NCBI GenBank assembly: GCA_028710685.1
Contig: JAQTTQ010000005.1
Location: 1-44,036, forward strand
From: Candidatus Omnitrophota bacterium
GTDB taxonomy: Bacteria > Omnitrophota > Gorgyraeia > Gygaellales > Profunditerraquicolaceae
Direction of reading: 5' to 3'
Length of the DNA stretch: 44,036 nucleotides
The first letter of the stretch is position 1; each line of letters starts with the position of its first letter. A model generated the notes under the pieces. The model did no database searches and was not told where the DNA came from. It saw nothing but the letters and a program-made list of their open reading frames with translations. This document shows positions 6,935-14,878 of the stretch, one piece after another. A program made the position numbers and the translations under genes.

Positions 6935-7375
6935 TTATATTTGATAAACCAGATTCTCGCTGGGGCCAAGAGCCTTCTTTGCTAATTCTTCGAAATTAAT
7001 CCTATCGATAATTCTAGTAGTTGCCTCATTAACCTGAAACCATATATCCCTAAAAACACAAGTTGACGACTCTTTACAGCCGCTATATGTTTTGCTAATA
7101 CATGCTATAGGTTCGGTAGATCCTACGATAAACCTTACAACTTCTCCCAAGGTTATCTGAGAAGGATCCTTAGACAAAAGGTAGCCTCCTACATTACCCC
7201 TGCGGCTTTCTACAAATCCCCCCTTTTTAAGTTCAGACAATATTTGCTCTAAAAACTTTATCGGAATATCCAAACGCCTAGCCAGCCCCGGTACTGAAAC
7301 AGGATCAGGACCATAATTAATAGCTAAGTTTAACATTGTTTTTAAAGCATAGTCAGCTTTATAAGTAATACGCAT
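6935..7375 (-). CDS. Rrf2-family regulator heading the cysK-thiM-thiE operon
   Basis: 146 aa. The N-terminal winged HTH begins MRITYKADYALKTMLNLA, has DIPIKFLEQILSELKKGGFVES as recognition region (36-57) and the RRGNVGGYLL wing. Three cysteines, C92, C100 and C106, lie in the loop where IscR-type proteins bind a [2Fe-2S] cluster, so an Fe-S sensing role is likely. CymR-type Rrf2 proteins lack such a set. It is first in its operon with a clear promoter and an AGAGGA ribosome site, and AT-rich repeated sequence around the -10 suggests autoregulation. It may sense Fe-S or cysteine status; the effector is not decided by sequence. Confidence 0.92.
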   Translation of the reverse strand: MRITYKADYALKTMLNLAINYGPDPVSVPGLARRLDIPIKFLEQILSELKKGGFVESRRGNVGGYLLSKDPSQITLGEVVRFIVGSTEPIACISKTYSGCKESSTCVFRDIWFQVNEATTRIIDRINFEELAKKALGPSENLVYQI

Positions 7376-8676: not shown

Positions 8677-9153
8677 CTAAAGCAGTTCCCTTATTTCCGT
8701 TAACGCTTTAAGGTGACCCTTCTCCTGCTCAATTAAATAATCTATTACCCTCTTGCCAGCATCAGGAACAACTTTCTTTATCCCTTCATAAAAAATAATG
8801 GATTCTTTCTCGAAAACCATAGCCTTTGCCAACGCTTCCTTATCGGTTTTTAAGGCACTAGCTATCACCCTTCCCGTATTTTCTTTAGTAAAAACGTGCT
8901 CGCTGGCTAGGGCATTCATATAGGCAAAATAATCATCCGAAACTAGGACCCCTTCCTTTGGGTTATCGGTTTTCTCCAAAATCTCTTGGAAAGACTTGAT
9001 ATGTTTTTCTTCCTCTCCTGCCAGGAACTTAAAAACTTCCTGTACCCTGATATCACTCGATAGGCTTACAAGGGTTGCATAAAAGTCTCTTCCGTTCTTC
9101 TCAATCTGTATTCCGATCTCTACTATTTCGCTTCCCGAAAAAACATCTCCCAT
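8677..9153 (-). CDS. Erythrin / ferritin-like diiron protein (rubrerythrin without rubredoxin domain)
   Basis: 158 aa four-helix ferritin-like protein. Iron-ligand motifs are visible: E18 (IQIEKNGRDFY), E47-E48 and H51 (GEEEKH), then EKESIIFYEGI around 113-123 and EQEKGHLKAL near the C-terminus. There is no CxxC rubredoxin module, so electrons would have to come from the separate rubredoxin encoded in the same operon. Such proteins reduce hydrogen peroxide or store iron in anaerobes. Peroxidase function is inferred from the family and from the neighbours (superoxide reductase, FprA). Confidence 0.88.
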   Translation of the reverse strand: MGDVFSGSEIVEIGIQIEKNGRDFYATLVSLSSDIRVQEVFKFLAGEEEKHIKSFQEILEKTDNPKEGVLVSDDYFAYMNALASEHVFTKENTGRVIASALKTDKEALAKAMVFEKESIIFYEGIKKVVPDAGKRVIDYLIEQEKGHLKALTEIRELL

Positions 9154-9172: not shown

Positions 9173-9634
9173 CTATTTTAGATGCGCCGGGGTAAGATCA
9201 ACGGCCTCTTCAACTTCCAAAACAATCATATATTTGGGCTTAGGCAAAGATGCCTCCGGATGCCCTTTATGCCCTTTTTCTTCGCGGATATTCTTAAGCA
9301 GCCGCTGCGTAAGCCTGCCGGTAATCCTCTCTTCCCAGCTTTTTACAATATTTTCCGTCAACTCCTCCTCGTGAATTAACCTTGCCCTTCCCTTAAGGCA
9401 AAAACCCTTAAACCTATGCTCATCAAAAGCAGTTGCGCTGGCAGATGGATTTGACTTTAAATTCTTAAAAGTCTGCCCGTGGTAGGCATCAAGAAAATAA
9501 GCACGCCCGGACTCTTCAATCTTAATCATCCCCTTGCAAGAGGTATGGGGGAAACCTCTGCTGTCAATTGTAGTTATAACTACACAACCCTGGCTTTCAA
9601 AGAAATTTATTATTTCACTGGCTAGTTTCACCAT
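9173..9634 (-). CDS. Pyridoxamine 5'-phosphate oxidase-like FMN-binding protein
   Basis: 153 aa split beta-barrel of the PNPOx-like superfamily. It begins VKLASEIINFFESQGCVVITTIDSRGFPHTS, the typical substrate/FMN entry strand, and continues KSNPSASATAFDEHRFKGFCLKGRARL. Proteins of this kind bind FMN or another flavin and often act as small-molecule reductases or in stress responses; true PdxH function is unlikely from context. It is 9 nt after fprA and 19 nt before erythrin, so it is an integral operon member. The substrate is unknown. Confidence 0.85.
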   Translation of the reverse strand: MVKLASEIINFFESQGCVVITTIDSRGFPHTSCKGMIKIEESGRAYFLDAYHGQTFKNLKSNPSASATAFDEHRFKGFCLKGRARLIHEEELTENIVKSWEERITGRLTQRLLKNIREEKGHKGHPEASLPKPKYMIVLEVEEAVDLTPAHLK

Positions 9635-9643
9635 TAATATTGG

Positions 9644-10837
9644 TTAATTTACCTTATCCGCTTTAACAATATTCTTTCCAAATTCTAAACAGGCCGCTAG
9701 CTCATTTTCATCAGGCCGATATTTAATACCCAACCCCAAAAGAGACAGAGGGATACCGCTTGCATTAATAATCTTTTCTATATCTTTCACTGCTCCCCCT
9801 GCCCAGCCAAATGAACCAAAGGCGCAAGCAAACCTGTTTTTAGGAGCAAGGCCGCGCATAAATTCAAGAAAACCTGCCATTGAAGGAAGCATCCCGTTAT
9901 CGTGTGTTGAAGAGCCAAAGATAAAAAACCTGGAATCCAGCATCTCCTTAATTACTTCAGTCCGATCTGCATTATTAATATCAAAAAGCTTTACCTCTAT
10001 GCCGGAATCAATAATGCCCTGCGCAATCTTGCGCGCCATCTTTTCCGTTGAGCCCCACATTGTTTCATAGACTATCACGGCTTTAGGCTTTACCTCATTA
10101 TTAGCCCAAGACAGATACTTAGCAACTATTTCCATTGGGTTCTTACGCCAAATAAGGCCGTGGCTAGGGGCTATCACCTTAATAGGTATGCCCAGTTTCT
10201 GGATTTCTGCAATTTTCTTGGAAATTATAGCCCCCAGGGGCCAAAGAATATTTGCGTAATATTTCGCTGCTTCATCCCACAATACACAGGGGTCTACCTC
10301 ATCCGTAAATATAAAACTTGAGGCTAGGTGCTGGCCAAAGGCATCATTAGGCATAAGCAGGGATTCCTGCGGACAATAGGTAAACATGCTATCCGGCCAA
10401 TGAATCATAGGCGCTTCTATAAAAGAGAGAGTTTTCTTTCCCAAAGAAACCGAATCACCGGTTTTAACTTCTTTAAAATTCCAATCGCAATAGTAATTTT
10501 TATACAGCCCTTCCCGGCACTTTGCTGTACCCAATACCTGGGCATTAGGGCATAACTTCATAAGCGCAGGCAGGGCTCCGGAATGGTCTGTTTCGACATG
10601 ATTGGCTATTACATATGAAATCTTCTCCAGCGGGATAATCTTTTGTATATTCTGGATTAACTCTTCGGTAAACGGGCCGTAGACAGTATCAATAAGGGCA
10701 ATCTTATCATCAACTATAAGGTAAGAATTATAACTGGTGCCTCTTTTAGTAGTATAGGTATGGCCGTGGAAACTGCGCATATTCCAGTCTACTACGCCTA
10801 CCGCATAAATACCCGGCAGTATCTCAAGACTAGGCAT
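9644..10837 (-). CDS. fprA: FprA-type flavodiiron protein (NO/O2 reductase)
   Basis: 397 aa with a metallo-beta-lactamase-like diiron domain (1-250) fused to a flavodoxin domain (about 253-397). Iron ligands are complete: H80, E82, D84, H85 in HVETDHSGALP, the histidine of MIHWPDSMFTY, the aspartate of MPNDAFGQH and the histidine of APSHGLIWR. The FMN loop YETMWGSTEKMA starts the flavodoxin part. It has the simple class A architecture, so it needs an external electron donor; the rubredoxin and reductase genes directly upstream supply it. It reduces O2 to water or NO to N2O, protecting anaerobes. Confidence 0.95.
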   Translation of the reverse strand: MPSLEILPGIYAVGVVDWNMRSFHGHTYTTKRGTSYNSYLIVDDKIALIDTVYGPFTEELIQNIQKIIPLEKISYVIANHVETDHSGALPALMKLCPNAQVLGTAKCREGLYKNYYCDWNFKEVKTGDSVSLGKKTLSFIEAPMIHWPDSMFTYCPQESLLMPNDAFGQHLASSFIFTDEVDPCVLWDEAAKYYANILWPLGAIISKKIAEIQKLGIPIKVIAPSHGLIWRKNPMEIVAKYLSWANNEVKPKAVIVYETMWGSTEKMARKIAQGIIDSGIEVKLFDINNADRTEVIKEMLDSRFFIFGSSTHDNGMLPSMAGFLEFMRGLAPKNRFACAFGSFGWAGGAVKDIEKIINASGIPLSLLGLGIKYRPDENELAACLEFGKNIVKADKVN

Positions 10838-10864: not shown

Positions 10865-11572
10865 CTACTGATACCCCTGGAAATTCTCCGTAATGATATT
10901 GCCTAAAGGCACTCCCAATTCCTTTGCCAAAAGCCCTTTCATCGCCTCCACCATAGAAGGCGGCCCGCAAAGAAAAAAGAAACGCTCTAAATAATCCGGT
11001 ACTTCTTTCTTAATTATATCGGGATTTATCCTTCCTACAATACAGCTAAATTCCGTATCCTTCTCGCATAAGACATGAATGACGCGTAAATTGCTGTATT
11101 CTCTTTGCATGGCCTCAAAGTCTTCGCGAAAGGCAATATCCCTCACAGAGTTATTCGCATAAAGCAGGGCGATATCTAAATTCAAATTTTTATCTGCGGC
11201 AAACTTGCACATGCTCCTTATAGGAGTAATTCCGATCCCGCCCGAAATAAAGGCGATCCTTTCTGCTGCGCGCTCAAGCGTAAAAGCTCCGTAGGGATAT
11301 TCGATTGAAACCATATCCCCGGGTTTAAGAATTGAGAAGGCCGCAGAAAAATCGCTGTCGGTTATCTTCTTGGTGAATTCAAGATAACCTTTTTCAGTAG
11401 GAGAGTTTGAAATTGAAAGATAGCGCTGCAAATTTTTGTCATTATTAAGCTTAATCCGCAAAAACTGCCCCGCCTTAAATTCCATCGGCCCATCCACAGC
11501 CGCTCTAATGCTTTTGACATTATAGGTGCGCGGGATAACCTTAATTATTCGTGCACAAACTGGATTAACCAT
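10865..11572 (-). CDS. FAD/NAD(P)H oxidoreductase of the ferredoxin reductase family
   Basis: 235 aa. The FAD-binding barrel carries RYLSISNSP near 50-58 and the nucleotide domain has FISGGIGITPIRSM near 108-121 and FLCGPPSMVEAMKG near 200-213. There is no [2Fe-2S] domain at either end. It lies 3 nt after rubredoxin and 27 nt before fprA, so it is most likely the NAD(P)H:rubredoxin reductase of this module. A role as flavin or ferredoxin reductase cannot be excluded. Confidence 0.88.
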   Translation of the reverse strand: MVNPVCARIIKVIPRTYNVKSIRAAVDGPMEFKAGQFLRIKLNNDKNLQRYLSISNSPTEKGYLEFTKKITDSDFSAAFSILKPGDMVSIEYPYGAFTLERAAERIAFISGGIGITPIRSMCKFAADKNLNLDIALLYANNSVRDIAFREDFEAMQREYSNLRVIHVLCEKDTEFSCIVGRINPDIIKKEVPDYLERFFFLCGPPSMVEAMKGLLAKELGVPLGNIITENFQGYQ

Positions 11573-11746: not shown

Positions 11747-12136
11747 TTACCCAATTTTTAAATCTTTGGTATTTTTCCATACCCCATGTATATTACAATA
11801 GGCAGTAGCTAAAATAGTCCCGGATTTACCTGCCTTAAAATAGGCCGTGGCCTTTGGCTGAGAATATACAGTACTTGTATTAGGCCCCTGTACAGATTCT
11901 CCGTGGGTATTAAATTCAAAGCGCGCAACCTGCAGGGGAAATTTTTCCTCCGGGATAAGATAATAAACTTCAATAGATTTTATATGATGCTCCACAGTAT
12001 TTGGATGCGCTATCTCTTTGCCCACTTCAACTGTTACTTTTACAATTTCATCCTTGCCGATTGTATCCGGCGCGTCAATTACCGGCACATGTTTCTCAGC
12101 TTTCCAGTCTGCTGTCTGCAGCGTCAATTCAGCCAT
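11747..12136 (-). CDS. Superoxide reductase (neelaredoxin type)
   Basis: 129 aa with a single Fe(His)4(Cys) centre: E14, K15 and H16 (AEKHVPVI), H44 and H50 (AHPNTVEHHI), C114 and H117 (AYCNIHGVW). No N-terminal desulforedoxin domain is present, so it belongs with the one-iron neelaredoxins. It reduces superoxide to peroxide without making oxygen, using electrons from rubredoxin, which is encoded 12 nt downstream. The peroxide produced could be handled by the erythrin in the same operon. Confidence 0.96.
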   Translation of the reverse strand: MAELTLQTADWKAEKHVPVIDAPDTIGKDEIVKVTVEVGKEIAHPNTVEHHIKSIEVYYLIPEEKFPLQVARFEFNTHGESVQGPNTSTVYSQPKATAYFKAGKSGTILATAYCNIHGVWKNTKDLKIG

Positions 12137-12145
12137 TTTAGCCTC

Positions 12146-13438
12146 CTATTCCTTTAATATTTTCTTTAAATCTTCTTCCGGCGTACCTATAAGCCTTAGG
12201 TCAAACTTCTCCTGAAGCAGCCCAAATACATTCTTAGAAATAAAGGCAGGAGGGGTCGGGCCTATGTATATTCCTTTAATATTAAGATATAACAAACTAA
12301 GCAATATGGCAACTGCTTTTTGCTCAAACCAAGACAGAACTAATGTAAGCGGCAAATCATTTACGCCGCAATTAAATGCCTTGGATAAGGCAAGCGCCAC
12401 CTGTACTGCCGAATAAGCATTATTACACTGGCCTACATCAATAAGGCGAGGTATGCCGTCTATCTCGCCGAAATCAATTTTGTTAAAACGGTATTTACCG
12501 CAGGCAAGGGTCAAGATTACACAGTCTTTGGGGACTCTTTCTGCGAATTCAGTATAATAGTTTCTACCCGGCTTGGCTCCATCGCACCCTCCTATTAAAA
12601 AGAAATGTTTAATCTTTCCGGATTTAACCGCGGCAATGATCTTATCCGCAAGGCCCAAGATAGCCGTATGGTGGAAACCTGTCATAATCTTCTTTCCCGG
12701 TACTTCTGACAGAGGAGGAAGCTGCTTGGCTTTTTCGATTATAGCCGAGAAATTCCTTCCCTCTAAATGGTTTGCCCCGGTGACCCCGGTAATCCCTATT
12801 GTAAATAACCTGTCCAGGTAAGTATTCTCCGGAGGAATTAAAACACAGTTAGTTGTAGCAAGTAAGGCACCGCTAAAAACATTAAACTCTTTTTTCTGCT
12901 CCTGCCATGCGCCTCCGTAATTACCTGCCAAATGCTTGAATTTCTTTAGTTCAGGATAACCATGCGCAGGAAGCATCTCGCTATGCGTATAAATATTTAT
13001 TCCGCTGCCTTCTGTCTGTTTTAGTAATTCGTAGAGATCCAAAAGATCATGTCCGGTTATAAGAATCCCCGGCCCTTTTCTGGTACCCGTATCAACCTCA
13101 ACAGGGACCGGATTGCCGAACCTCTCGGTATGGGCTTTATCCAGAGTTTCCATAATCCTTAAGTTCATAGCCCCGCATTTAAGAACAGCCTGTAAGTGGT
13201 CATTAAGGTCAAAACTCACATTGGTTACTGTCTTAAAGAGTGCCTCGTGCATAAAAGCATCCACCTCTTCATCCCGTGCGCCTAATTCCCTTGCATGATA
13301 AGCGTAAGCTGCGATACCTTTAAGGCCATACAAAAGTATCTCCTGAAGGCTCTGGATATCCTCATTTTTACCGCAAACCCCCACCTTTACCGCGCAACCT
13401 GTCCCTGACATTGTTTGCTCGCATTGGTTACAAAACAT
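12146..13438 (-). CDS. hcp: Hybrid cluster protein (class III Hcp)
   Basis: 430 aa. N-terminal cysteines C3, C6, C15 and C21 bind the cubane cluster. Ligands for the hybrid 4Fe-2O-2S cluster are visible in GHDLLDLYELL, HSEMLPAHGYP, FSGALLATTNCVLIPP, GGCDGAKPG, TLACGKYRFN, VGQCNN and the EQKAVAILL helix. The three-helix bundle that follows the N-terminal cysteines in 540-550-residue Hcp is missing, as in class III enzymes of thermophiles and methanogens. Hcp reduces NO to N2O or hydroxylamine to ammonia. It is 9 nt before superoxide reductase and 39 nt after a dicluster ferredoxin that may be its donor. Confidence 0.95.
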   Translation of the reverse strand: MFCNQCEQTMSGTGCAVKVGVCGKNEDIQSLQEILLYGLKGIAAYAYHARELGARDEEVDAFMHEALFKTVTNVSFDLNDHLQAVLKCGAMNLRIMETLDKAHTERFGNPVPVEVDTGTRKGPGILITGHDLLDLYELLKQTEGSGINIYTHSEMLPAHGYPELKKFKHLAGNYGGAWQEQKKEFNVFSGALLATTNCVLIPPENTYLDRLFTIGITGVTGANHLEGRNFSAIIEKAKQLPPLSEVPGKKIMTGFHHTAILGLADKIIAAVKSGKIKHFFLIGGCDGAKPGRNYYTEFAERVPKDCVILTLACGKYRFNKIDFGEIDGIPRLIDVGQCNNAYSAVQVALALSKAFNCGVNDLPLTLVLSWFEQKAVAILLSLLYLNIKGIYIGPTPPAFISKNVFGLLQEKFDLRLIGTPEEDLKKILKE

Positions 13439-13477: not shown

Positions 13478-14314
13478 TTACTTAAGCCTCTCACCCTTAA
13501 TACCTATAACCACCTCTTCAAACCTACTGCCGCTTTTTGATTCTTCAATAGCTTTTTTTATTATATCAACTAACCCGAAACAGCATGGTACTTCCATATG
13601 CGCATAGGTTATAGACTTAACATCGTTATTCTTTAATATTTCGACTATCTTCTCAGTATAAACCGAGGCATCGTCAAGCTTAGGGCAGCCTACCAAAAGT
13701 ATCTTTCCTTTAAGCAGTTTATCATGAAAAGAAGGATATGCAAAAGGGACACAATCCGCGGCAATCAGAACATCCGCATTATTAAGGTAAGGCGCAAACG
13801 CAGGCACAAGCATTAATTGTACGGGCCAATTACCGAGTTGGGAATCCGACTCTTTGGCATTACCAAGACCATTCTCAGACTGTTGCTTTCTCGAAAACTC
13901 CATAAGCCTTGAACCAGGGCAGCCCTGATGGTATGTGTCTGTTAAAACAGGCTCTTCATTAAGAGGGCTTTCTATCTTCTTCTCTTTTAGGTAATCCAAT
14001 GCCTCCTTTAGAAACTTCTCCTCATGGTGCTCTTTTAAATGCACAAGGTGGGCTTTGATTACGTTATCACCCTGCTTTATGACATTATCCATTACCTTCT
14101 TTTCGTTGTAAGGCTTTGCCTCCCTCTCGGTAAAAGTAATGGCGCCCTGAGGGCAATGCCCGATACAAGCCCCAAGCCCATCGCAAAACAAATCGCTGAT
14201 CAGCCTTGCCTTTCCGTCAATTATCTGAATCGCGCCTTCAGGGCAATTAGGTATGCATAATCCGCAACCATTACATTTATTTTCATCTATTTCAATTATC
14301 TTTCTTTTTGGCAT
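13478..14314 (-). CDS. Dicluster ferredoxin with cysteine-containing C-terminal domain, Hcp-associated
   Basis: 278 aa. Residues 1-65 carry two Fe-S motifs: C14, C17, C20, C24 and a less regular second set with C44, C50, C54 (CDGLGACIGHCPQGAI). The remaining 200 residues hold more cysteines: HQGCPGSR near 142, AADCVPFAYPS near 189, LVGCPKLDD near 209 and VPCCFGLVD near 239. The C-terminal domain has no name I can assign. This type of protein is often encoded beside hcp in anaerobes, so electron supply to Hcp is the natural inference. It follows the Rrf2 gene by 12 nt. Confidence 0.85.
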   Translation of the reverse strand: MPKRKIIEIDENKCNGCGLCIPNCPEGAIQIIDGKARLISDLFCDGLGACIGHCPQGAITFTEREAKPYNEKKVMDNVIKQGDNVIKAHLVHLKEHHEEKFLKEALDYLKEKKIESPLNEEPVLTDTYHQGCPGSRLMEFSRKQQSENGLGNAKESDSQLGNWPVQLMLVPAFAPYLNNADVLIAADCVPFAYPSFHDKLLKGKILLVGCPKLDDASVYTEKIVEILKNNDVKSITYAHMEVPCCFGLVDIIKKAIEESKSGSRFEEVVIGIKGERLK

Positions 14315-14326
14315 TGATATTCAACC

Positions 14327-14725
14327 TCACTTTATTAAAGAAGCAACGGCCACCGAAGATAACTCTTTTCTTACGTACTTTTCAATTCTTAAGATCCTTT
14401 CCCGTAAAGGACAATCCTTGGTATGCGGGCAAATTCCTTTCCCCAGAGAACATTCATTCAGACAAAATTCTCCTTGGAAAATATGCATAATATCGGTAAG
14501 AAATATGTCTTCGGGGGGCTTTGCAAGCGAGAAACCTCCGCCCTTTCCCTTAAAAGAATTCAAAATCCCTTTGTTATGCAATACCTGCAGCAGTTTTCTT
14601 AAAAAAGGACCCGGGATTCTTAAATTCTTAACAAGCGAAGATACGGGATAAAGCCTTTCTTTGTTCTTAGCTATAAAACAAACTGCCCTTAGGGCGTAAT
14701 CTGTATCGCGCGTAATTAATTTCAT
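14327..14725 (-). CDS. Fe-S Rrf2-family regulator of the redox operon
   Basis: 132 aa with the Rrf2 winged HTH (MKLITRDTDYALRAVCFIAK, then LRIPGPFLRKLLQVLHNKGI at about 35-54) and cysteines C88, C92, C99 and C105 in the cluster loop, suiting an NsrR/IscR-type Fe-S sensor of NO, superoxide or oxygen. It is the first full gene of the redox operon and a dyad overlaps the promoter 125 nt upstream, fitting autoregulation. Its ATG has no Shine-Dalgarno sequence; a 25-codon ORF with a strong one ends 27 nt upstream, so its translation may depend on re-initiation. Confidence 0.93.
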   Translation of the reverse strand: MKLITRDTDYALRAVCFIAKNKERLYPVSSLVKNLRIPGPFLRKLLQVLHNKGILNSFKGKGGGFSLAKPPEDIFLTDIMHIFQGEFCLNECSLGKGICPHTKDCPLRERILRIEKYVRKELSSVAVASLIK

Positions 14726-14752
14726 ATTTAATTTAGGTTAGGCAGTTTATCG

Positions 14753-14830
14753 TCATGCCCAGGACACTTTACTGCAGCCCTCTTTACAGTGGGCAACGGG
14801 GCGCAACATATATCTAACAGTAATATCCAT
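14753..14830 (-). CDS. Candidate 25-aa Cys-containing leader peptide
   Basis: ATG at 14830 with a strong ribosome site (AAAGGAGG, 5 nt spacing) opens a 25-codon frame ending in TGA. It begins MDITVRYMLR and holds H14, C15 and C19 (AHCKEGCSKVSW). It lies between a consensus promoter and the SD-less Rrf2 start. No family is recognised. It could be a regulatory leader whose translation feeds the Rrf2 gene, a real small thiol peptide, or a chance frame. Confidence 0.5.
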   Translation of the reverse strand: MDITVRYMLRPVAHCKEGCSKVSWA

Positions 14831-14850: not shown

Positions 14851-14878
14851 ATGATACCATAATAGTATCATATGTCAA
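14851..14878 (-). promoter_or_regulatory. Redox-operon promoter with overlapping dyad operator
   Basis: Minus-strand -35 TTGACA (14878-14873), 16-nt spacer, -10 TATCAT (14856-14851). A perfect inverted repeat with 7-bp arms ATGATAC and GTATCAT (14851-14857 and 14865-14871, 7-nt centre) covers the spacer and the -10 box, placing a dimeric repressor directly over the RNA polymerase site. The adjacent Rrf2 protein is the obvious candidate ligand. Confidence 0.75.

Follow-up and report, generated by a model that had tools for sequence, protein, structure and literature searches.

NsrR is an Rrf2-fold regulator with three cysteines, which controls a small regulon of hcp-type nitric oxide (NO) and redox genes, counts nsrR among its own targets and recognizes a near-palindromic site of about two helical turns (PMC1274295, PMC9338935). 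The operator consensus given in PMC1274295 is gATGyAT-N5-ATrCATc; the same paper names HcpR as the regulator that, in anaerobes, controls hcp and the ferredoxin-like proteins associated with it. Two further systems involve a short upstream reading frame. The Bordetella copper leader CruR (DUF2946) is a small cysteine-bearing upstream ORF that acts on downstream genes through its nascent chain (PMC9426467), and the LEU element of Actinobacteria places a leader ORF and a conserved pseudoknot before an operon, its mode of action being given as unclear (PMC1262725).

The locus described here lies in a window of 44,036 nucleotides (the whole stretch of DNA that was analysed) from a Candidatus Omnitrophota bacterium (Table 1). 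It has in common with the NsrR system the Rrf2 fold, the three cysteines, the kind of regulon, the near-palindromic site of similar length and the regulator gene among the predicted targets. However, the site reads ATGATACYAT-N-ATRGTATCAT and, over 60 sites, does not follow the NsrR consensus; the window protein also scores far below the NsrR equivalog cut-off (NCBIfam, 42.6 bits against 182), and no hmp gene was recognized in the operon by domain search. The targets resemble those of HcpR in comprising hcp and ferredoxin-like proteins, but HcpR is a CRP/FNR protein whereas the linked regulator here belongs to Rrf2.

The leader that lies between the site and rrf2 is nearest in design to the LEU element and CruR. 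Like CruR, it is a small cysteine-bearing ORF upstream of genes, but it gives no DUF2946 match (Pfam, up to E 10), carries HC-x3-C, with CXXC and RAPP absent from the conserved peptide core, and is followed by a conserved pseudoknot. The combination of leader ORF and conserved pseudoknot before an operon is shared with the LEU element, which contains leucine codons and in which no unpaired base is conserved. In contrast, our leader contains no run of leucine codons, does not precede leuA, has a peptide that is itself conserved, and has mostly redox genes as its targets.

The operon amounts to an anaerobe's set of defences against NO, oxygen and peroxide. Its regulator exceeds the cut-offs of the Rrf2 family (PF02082, 100.9 bits against 30; TIGR00738, 96.8 against 73.3) and falls below the NCBIfam equivalog cut-offs for IscR, RirA, CymR and HypR as well as that for NsrR; therefore, it probably represents a separate branch of the family. 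The pattern C-x6-C-x5-C is shared by 62 of 66 orthologs, among them the window protein, and corresponds to the three cysteines of NsrR/IscR-type Fe-S regulators. An Fe-S cluster is likely, as predicted from the family, and the protein presumably represses its own operon. The original prediction counted four cysteines in the cluster loop. Four are present (88, 92, 99 and 105), but conservation is limited to 92, 99 and 105; C88 occurs in only 2 of the 66 orthologs. The prediction also named rrf2 as the next full gene; rrf2 does lie downstream, although a conserved 25-codon ORF stands between it and the promoter.

Table 1. Features of the redox operon and its upstream region in the window (S1, S2 and loop 3 are parts of the pseudoknot).
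Feature	Position	Strand	Basis or detail
Predicted operator, 21-bp palindrome ATGATACCAT-A-ATAGTATCAT	14851–14871	.	sequence and conservation in relatives, upstream of rrf2
Sigma-70-type promoter	14851–14878	-	-35 TTGACA 14878–14873, 16-nt spacer, -10 TATCAT 14856–14851
Leader ORF, 25 codons, peptide MDITVRYMLRPVAHCKEGCSKVSWA	14753–14830	-	strong Shine-Dalgarno 14843–14836; pN/pS 0.126 in frame 0
H-type pseudoknot overlapping the leader ORF end	14740–14773	-	conserved RNA; covarying stems
S1	14765–14763 with 14754–14752	-	pseudoknot stem
S2	14760–14756 with 14744–14740	-	pseudoknot stem
Loop 3	14751–14745	-	pseudoknot loop
Rrf2 regulator, C-x6-C-x5-C at 92/99/105	14327–14725	-	Pfam PF02082 8e-29; TIGR00738 above cut-off; cysteines
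4Fe-4S ferredoxin-domain protein	13478–14314	-	domain match
Hybrid cluster protein Hcp	12146–13438	-	Prismane 7e-137; TIGR01703 above cut-off
Desulfoferrodoxin-family protein	11747–12136	-	domain match
FAD/NAD-binding oxidoreductase	10865–11572	-	domain match
Flavodiiron protein	9644–10837	-	ODP and flavodoxin domains; best NCBIfam match flavorubredoxin, below cut-off
PNPOx-fold flavoprotein	9173–9634	-	domain match
Rubrerythrin-family protein	8677–9153	-	domain match

The dyad had been described as ATGATAC and GTATCAT with a 7-nt centre, and these letters occur exactly in the window (ATGATAC at 14851-14857, CATAATA at 14858-14864, GTATCAT at 14865-14871). The symmetry is longer than this and is better described as two arms of 10 nt around a single nucleotide, with 9 of the 10 pairs complementary. 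The span of 14851-14878 assigned to the dyad holds at its start, but the palindrome ends at 14871 and the remainder takes in the -35 hexamer. The claimed overlap with a near-consensus promoter is borne out, as 11 of 12 consensus positions match and TG precedes the -10 box; read on the minus strand, the dyad fills the promoter spacer and the -10 box, which thus lies inside the putative operator. The second Rrf2 gene in the window (6935-7375, minus strand) has a different promoter, with TTGACA and without the ATGATAC dyad, in agreement with the claim that the motif there differs.

Taken alone, the window dyad is no rarer than chance. Perfect 7-7-7 dyads number 5 in the window against a mean of 4.3 in dinucleotide shuffles, which is not beyond chance, and 10-1-10 dyads 5 against 2.1. 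The dyad is the sole exact copy in its own genome, where the next best have two mismatches; allowing up to three, the scan returns 41 places versus 28 for a reversed control, and these near matches look like background. A regulon of further dyads in the window's own genome was therefore rejected. We judge the dyad to be real because it is conserved in relatives, not because of single-sequence statistics.

The comparison covered 98 genomes, that of the window among them; 63 carry the motif (up to two mismatches), whereas a reversed-pattern control occurs in 2. An Rrf2 ortholog (E<1e-20) is present in 62. Both occur in 60 genomes, the dyad only in 3, the ortholog only in 2 and neither in 33, so that the two are jointly present or jointly absent in 93 of 98; the Fisher p of 3e-20 should not be read as counting independent events, because the genomes are related. 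Absence of the dyad upstream of orthologous operons had been named as the observation that would speak against an operator, and it was looked for: 60 of the 62 genomes with an Rrf2 ortholog carry the dyad, versus 3 of the 36 without. In these three, a contig end cuts the locus (G004), rrf2 is broken into two matching pieces with dyad and leader intact (G034, L061), or the site falls within a coding gene that is ispG-like by eye (G089). The two genomes with an ortholog and no dyad at this threshold (G029, G093) count against the operator reading, as does G084, whose rrf2 has no dyad while one is present ahead of a ferredoxin gene at another place.

There are 70 sites with up to two mismatches. 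Of these, 58 lie ahead of rrf2, counting the broken gene of G034, and 7 ahead of other redox genes; 2 fall at contig ends, and 3 are within genes and look like chance. The seven redox-gene sites away from rrf2 precede genes for Hcp (G008), ferredoxin-domain proteins (G050, G084), peroxiredoxin-rubredoxin-desulfoferrodoxin (G095), a YHS protein (G092), a weakly rubrerythrin-like protein (G047; E 0.0012, below the cut-off), and a leader ORF followed by a DUF6132 protein (G067). All seven rrf2 loci from named genomes that are at least 50% identical, two of them from Auribacterota, carry the dyad with up to two mismatches; an eighth locus, 25% identical, is omitted from this count.

On the coding strand, the 60 sites upstream of rrf2 (up to three mismatches) have the consensus ATGATAC-TAATATG-GTATCAT, or ATGATAC(T/A)A(A/T)TATGGTATCAT. 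A TTGACW hexamer abuts the dyad in 55 of them, with a spacer to TATCAT of 16 (47 sites) or 17 nt (8 sites); the -10 sequence TATCAT itself is found in 57 and its TG extension in 46. Both arms are nearly invariant, and the upstream one coincides with no promoter element. The distance from dyad to rrf2 ranges from 6 to 294 nt in relatives. Seven genomes have the rrf2 start codon only 6-10 nt after the dyad (their loci include L067, L076, L085 and L087). We infer from the position of the -10 box that rrf2 mRNA from the operator-promoter would be leaderless at such loci.

We consider it very probable (about 0.86) that the dyad serves as operator for the Rrf2 protein whose gene follows downstream. 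Its fixed place in the promoter, its conservation, its coupling to rrf2 and the sites before other redox genes all support the original prediction of an operator for an Rrf2 repressor. An Rrf2 dimer on ATGATACYAT-N-ATRGTATCAT would cover the spacer and the -10 box and thereby exclude RNA polymerase. Damage to the presumed Fe-S cluster by NO, oxygen or oxidants would then make Rrf2 release the DNA, and the operon would be made, yielding Rrf2, ferredoxin, Hcp, desulfoferrodoxin, flavodiiron protein and rubrerythrin. It is improbable that a different regulator binds the dyad, with rrf2 as a mere member of its regulon. Operator and neighbouring gene need not match, and 7 of the 70 sites precede redox genes not adjoining rrf2; but the joint presence or absence of dyad and ortholog in 93 genomes argues against this, as does the behaviour of Rrf2 proteins, which usually control linked redox genes and often themselves (PMC1274295, PMC9338935). 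That the conserved sequence is a strong promoter only, and no operator, is scarcely credible: the 3' arm does coincide with the -10 box, and the -35 hexamer mostly abuts the dyad, yet the 5' arm lies in a spacer where no fixed sequence is needed and is almost invariant, and the window's other Rrf2 promoter has no such spacer.

Between dyad and rrf2, the peptide YMLRPVAHCKEGC is conserved in relatives, and a gap longer than about 120 nt nearly always contains a short ORF preceded by a strong Shine-Dalgarno sequence. Several counts below come from an alignment of 105 of 114 rows (A3), kept if they form at least two S1 and three S2 pairs; because the rows were picked by pairing, its numbers for pN/pS, stop position, U-runs, S1 pairs and covariation lean towards structure. 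Across leader codons 6 to 19 of these 105 loci, synonymous positions vary freely and amino acids little, which gives the low pN/pS in Table 1; the other two frames give values above 2. These loci were collected with a peptide pattern, a choice that biases towards conserved amino acids but not towards synonymous change. The ORF is present in 50 of the 98 relatives (E≤0.1) and, by profile search, in 151 of 384 Omnitrophota genomes, in part of which the leaders were actually read, mostly as a single copy per genome. The peptide was also found in 9 of 44 Auribacterota genomes. It matches no family in Pfam or NCBIfam, and the openly accessible papers searched contain neither its core HCKEGC nor a description of this leader or operator.

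Weak matches to the peptide in 5 of 299 Pseudomonadota genomes, which lack the pseudoknot, were set aside as chance, as were plasmid matches and a second match in G054; phages and viral contigs were searched and gave no match. A +1 frameshift joining the leader ORF to the CPGHDVKLP frame was also considered. Stops interrupt that frame in some genomes (such as G057 and G058), three genomes stop directly after HCKEGC, and the pseudoknot explains the nucleotide conservation in the CPGHDVKLP region; the idea was dropped on these grounds. A YHS-domain gene precedes the leader ORF at two loci (L129, L280), and in L129 the dyad promoter is found ahead of that gene; therefore, the leader is not always first in its transcript.

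After the Cys19 codon, conservation shifts from codon-wise to nucleotide-wise, with the consensus nGUAnnnnGUCCYGGGYAHGACGUUAAACUGCCC. The GUC/GAC and GGGYA/UGCCC pairings in it cross and thus form an H-type pseudoknot. In alignment A1 (41 of 49 loci, not picked by pairing, with 8 left out by eye as having insertions or being of the terminator type), 97.3% of cells pair and 5 of 8 pairs change on both sides, which 0 of 500 shuffles reach. Over A3, the S1 pair 9-22 is GC in 93 rows, CG in 10 and GU in 2; an all-against-all covariation scan places 9-22, 16-32, 8-23 and 14-34 within the top seven pairs; and unpaired C12 and AAA 26-28 are invariant. A rival nested stem between the Cys19 codon and ACUGC appears in single-sequence folds with little covariation and might be an alternative fold. 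Folded alone, the window pseudoknot is not unusually stable, and an Rfam covariance-model search returned only matches at E 0.13 and 0.051, far below gathering scores.

The RNA model was found in 43 of the 98 genomes, every time at an ORF locus. The 7 of 50 ORF genomes without a match comprise one with a contig end (G004), three with insertions or changed structure (G029, G037, G039) and three that have a terminator-like stem instead (G069, G072, G073). Built from Omnitrophota, the model recovers 8 of the 9 Auribacterota peptide loci and none of the 5 weak Pseudomonadota matches; it also recovered L268-L270, which the regular expression had missed. Extra hairpins stand before or within the pseudoknot at four loci (L016, L033, L123 and L251, in G092, G037, G029 and G265, respectively), and G092 retains the UGCCC partner strand past its inserted hairpin.

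The pseudoknot starts 8 nt past the Cys19 codon, and the leader stop codon lies inside it at 93 of 105 loci, at its edge at 9 and beyond it at 3. A co-directional gene comes next at 116 of 119 leader loci, at a median distance of 92 nt, downstream genes being called even where a Shine-Dalgarno sequence is absent. The Pfam tally, which covers 114 of the 116 downstream proteins, gives 51 Rrf2, 7 YHS, 4 desulfoferrodoxin, 4 redoxin and 3 ferritin, and 4 cellulases are among the rarer kinds; the leader is mostly ahead of redox or metal genes. Thymine rises to 0.59 about seven bases past the second stem, and runs of at least four T follow the pseudoknot at 36 of 105 loci versus 7 of 105 in a later stretch. 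Such runs are thus confined to 36 loci and do not occur in the window; this, the unremarkable stability of the window structure when folded alone, and the loci at which the leader comes after a YHS gene count against the leader mechanism proposed below. In G069, G073 and G072 (L183, L184 and L186), the ORF ends immediately behind HCKEGC, and next comes a strong terminator-like stem with a U-run, which in G072 and G073 directly precedes the Shine-Dalgarno sequence of the next gene.

Judged from the sequences, this arrangement resembles that of an attenuator controlled by translation of its leader. We lean slightly towards a second layer of control in the transcript, in which leader translation would determine whether the RNA structure forms and, through it, the level of transcription or translation of the downstream operon. 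Judging by the His and Cys residues of the peptide and by the genes nearby, the signal may be redox state or a metal. A fuller proposal, which we put forward tentatively and at somewhat less than even odds, is that this is an undescribed cis-element of Omnitrophota and Auribacterota. In it, a nascent peptide ending in RPVAHCKEGC would sense redox state or metal through His/Cys, at a fixed 8 nt from a covarying pseudoknot (in some lineages, an intrinsic terminator). The element would prefer anaerobic oxidative-stress and metal operons, many of them with the Rrf2 operator as a first layer.

The leader attenuator has two main rivals, a micropeptide and a riboswitch. The 25-codon ORF might encode a trans-acting metal- or cluster-binding micropeptide, the pseudoknot merely tuning its own mRNA. 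Selection at the peptide level, the His-Cys-x3-Cys motif and the usually single copy ahead of varied genes, sometimes after a YHS gene, are consistent with this, but the stop codon within the pseudoknot, the close co-directional gene and the three genomes that swap the pseudoknot for a terminator-like stem right before the next gene point the other way, and we think it unlikely, though the stronger of the two rivals. The pseudoknot could instead be a ligand-binding riboswitch or a protein-binding site, with the ORF merely timing its folding. The invariant unpaired bases and the constant length at most loci would fit such a site; however, every match of the RNA model in the 98 genomes (43/43) is at an ORF locus, and selection on the peptide codons is strong, making this quite improbable.

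The dyad thus appears to be a known kind of operator with a new sequence, predicted for Rrf2 proteins outside the named groups. It provides a concrete, phylum-wide predicted operator and a target list for a redox regulator in hardly cultured bacteria. A leader ORF with a pseudoknot also came to light, present in 151 of the 384 genomes sampled and without a match in Pfam, NCBIfam or Rfam. If its nascent chain does sense redox state or a metal, the leader would represent a new type of sensor.
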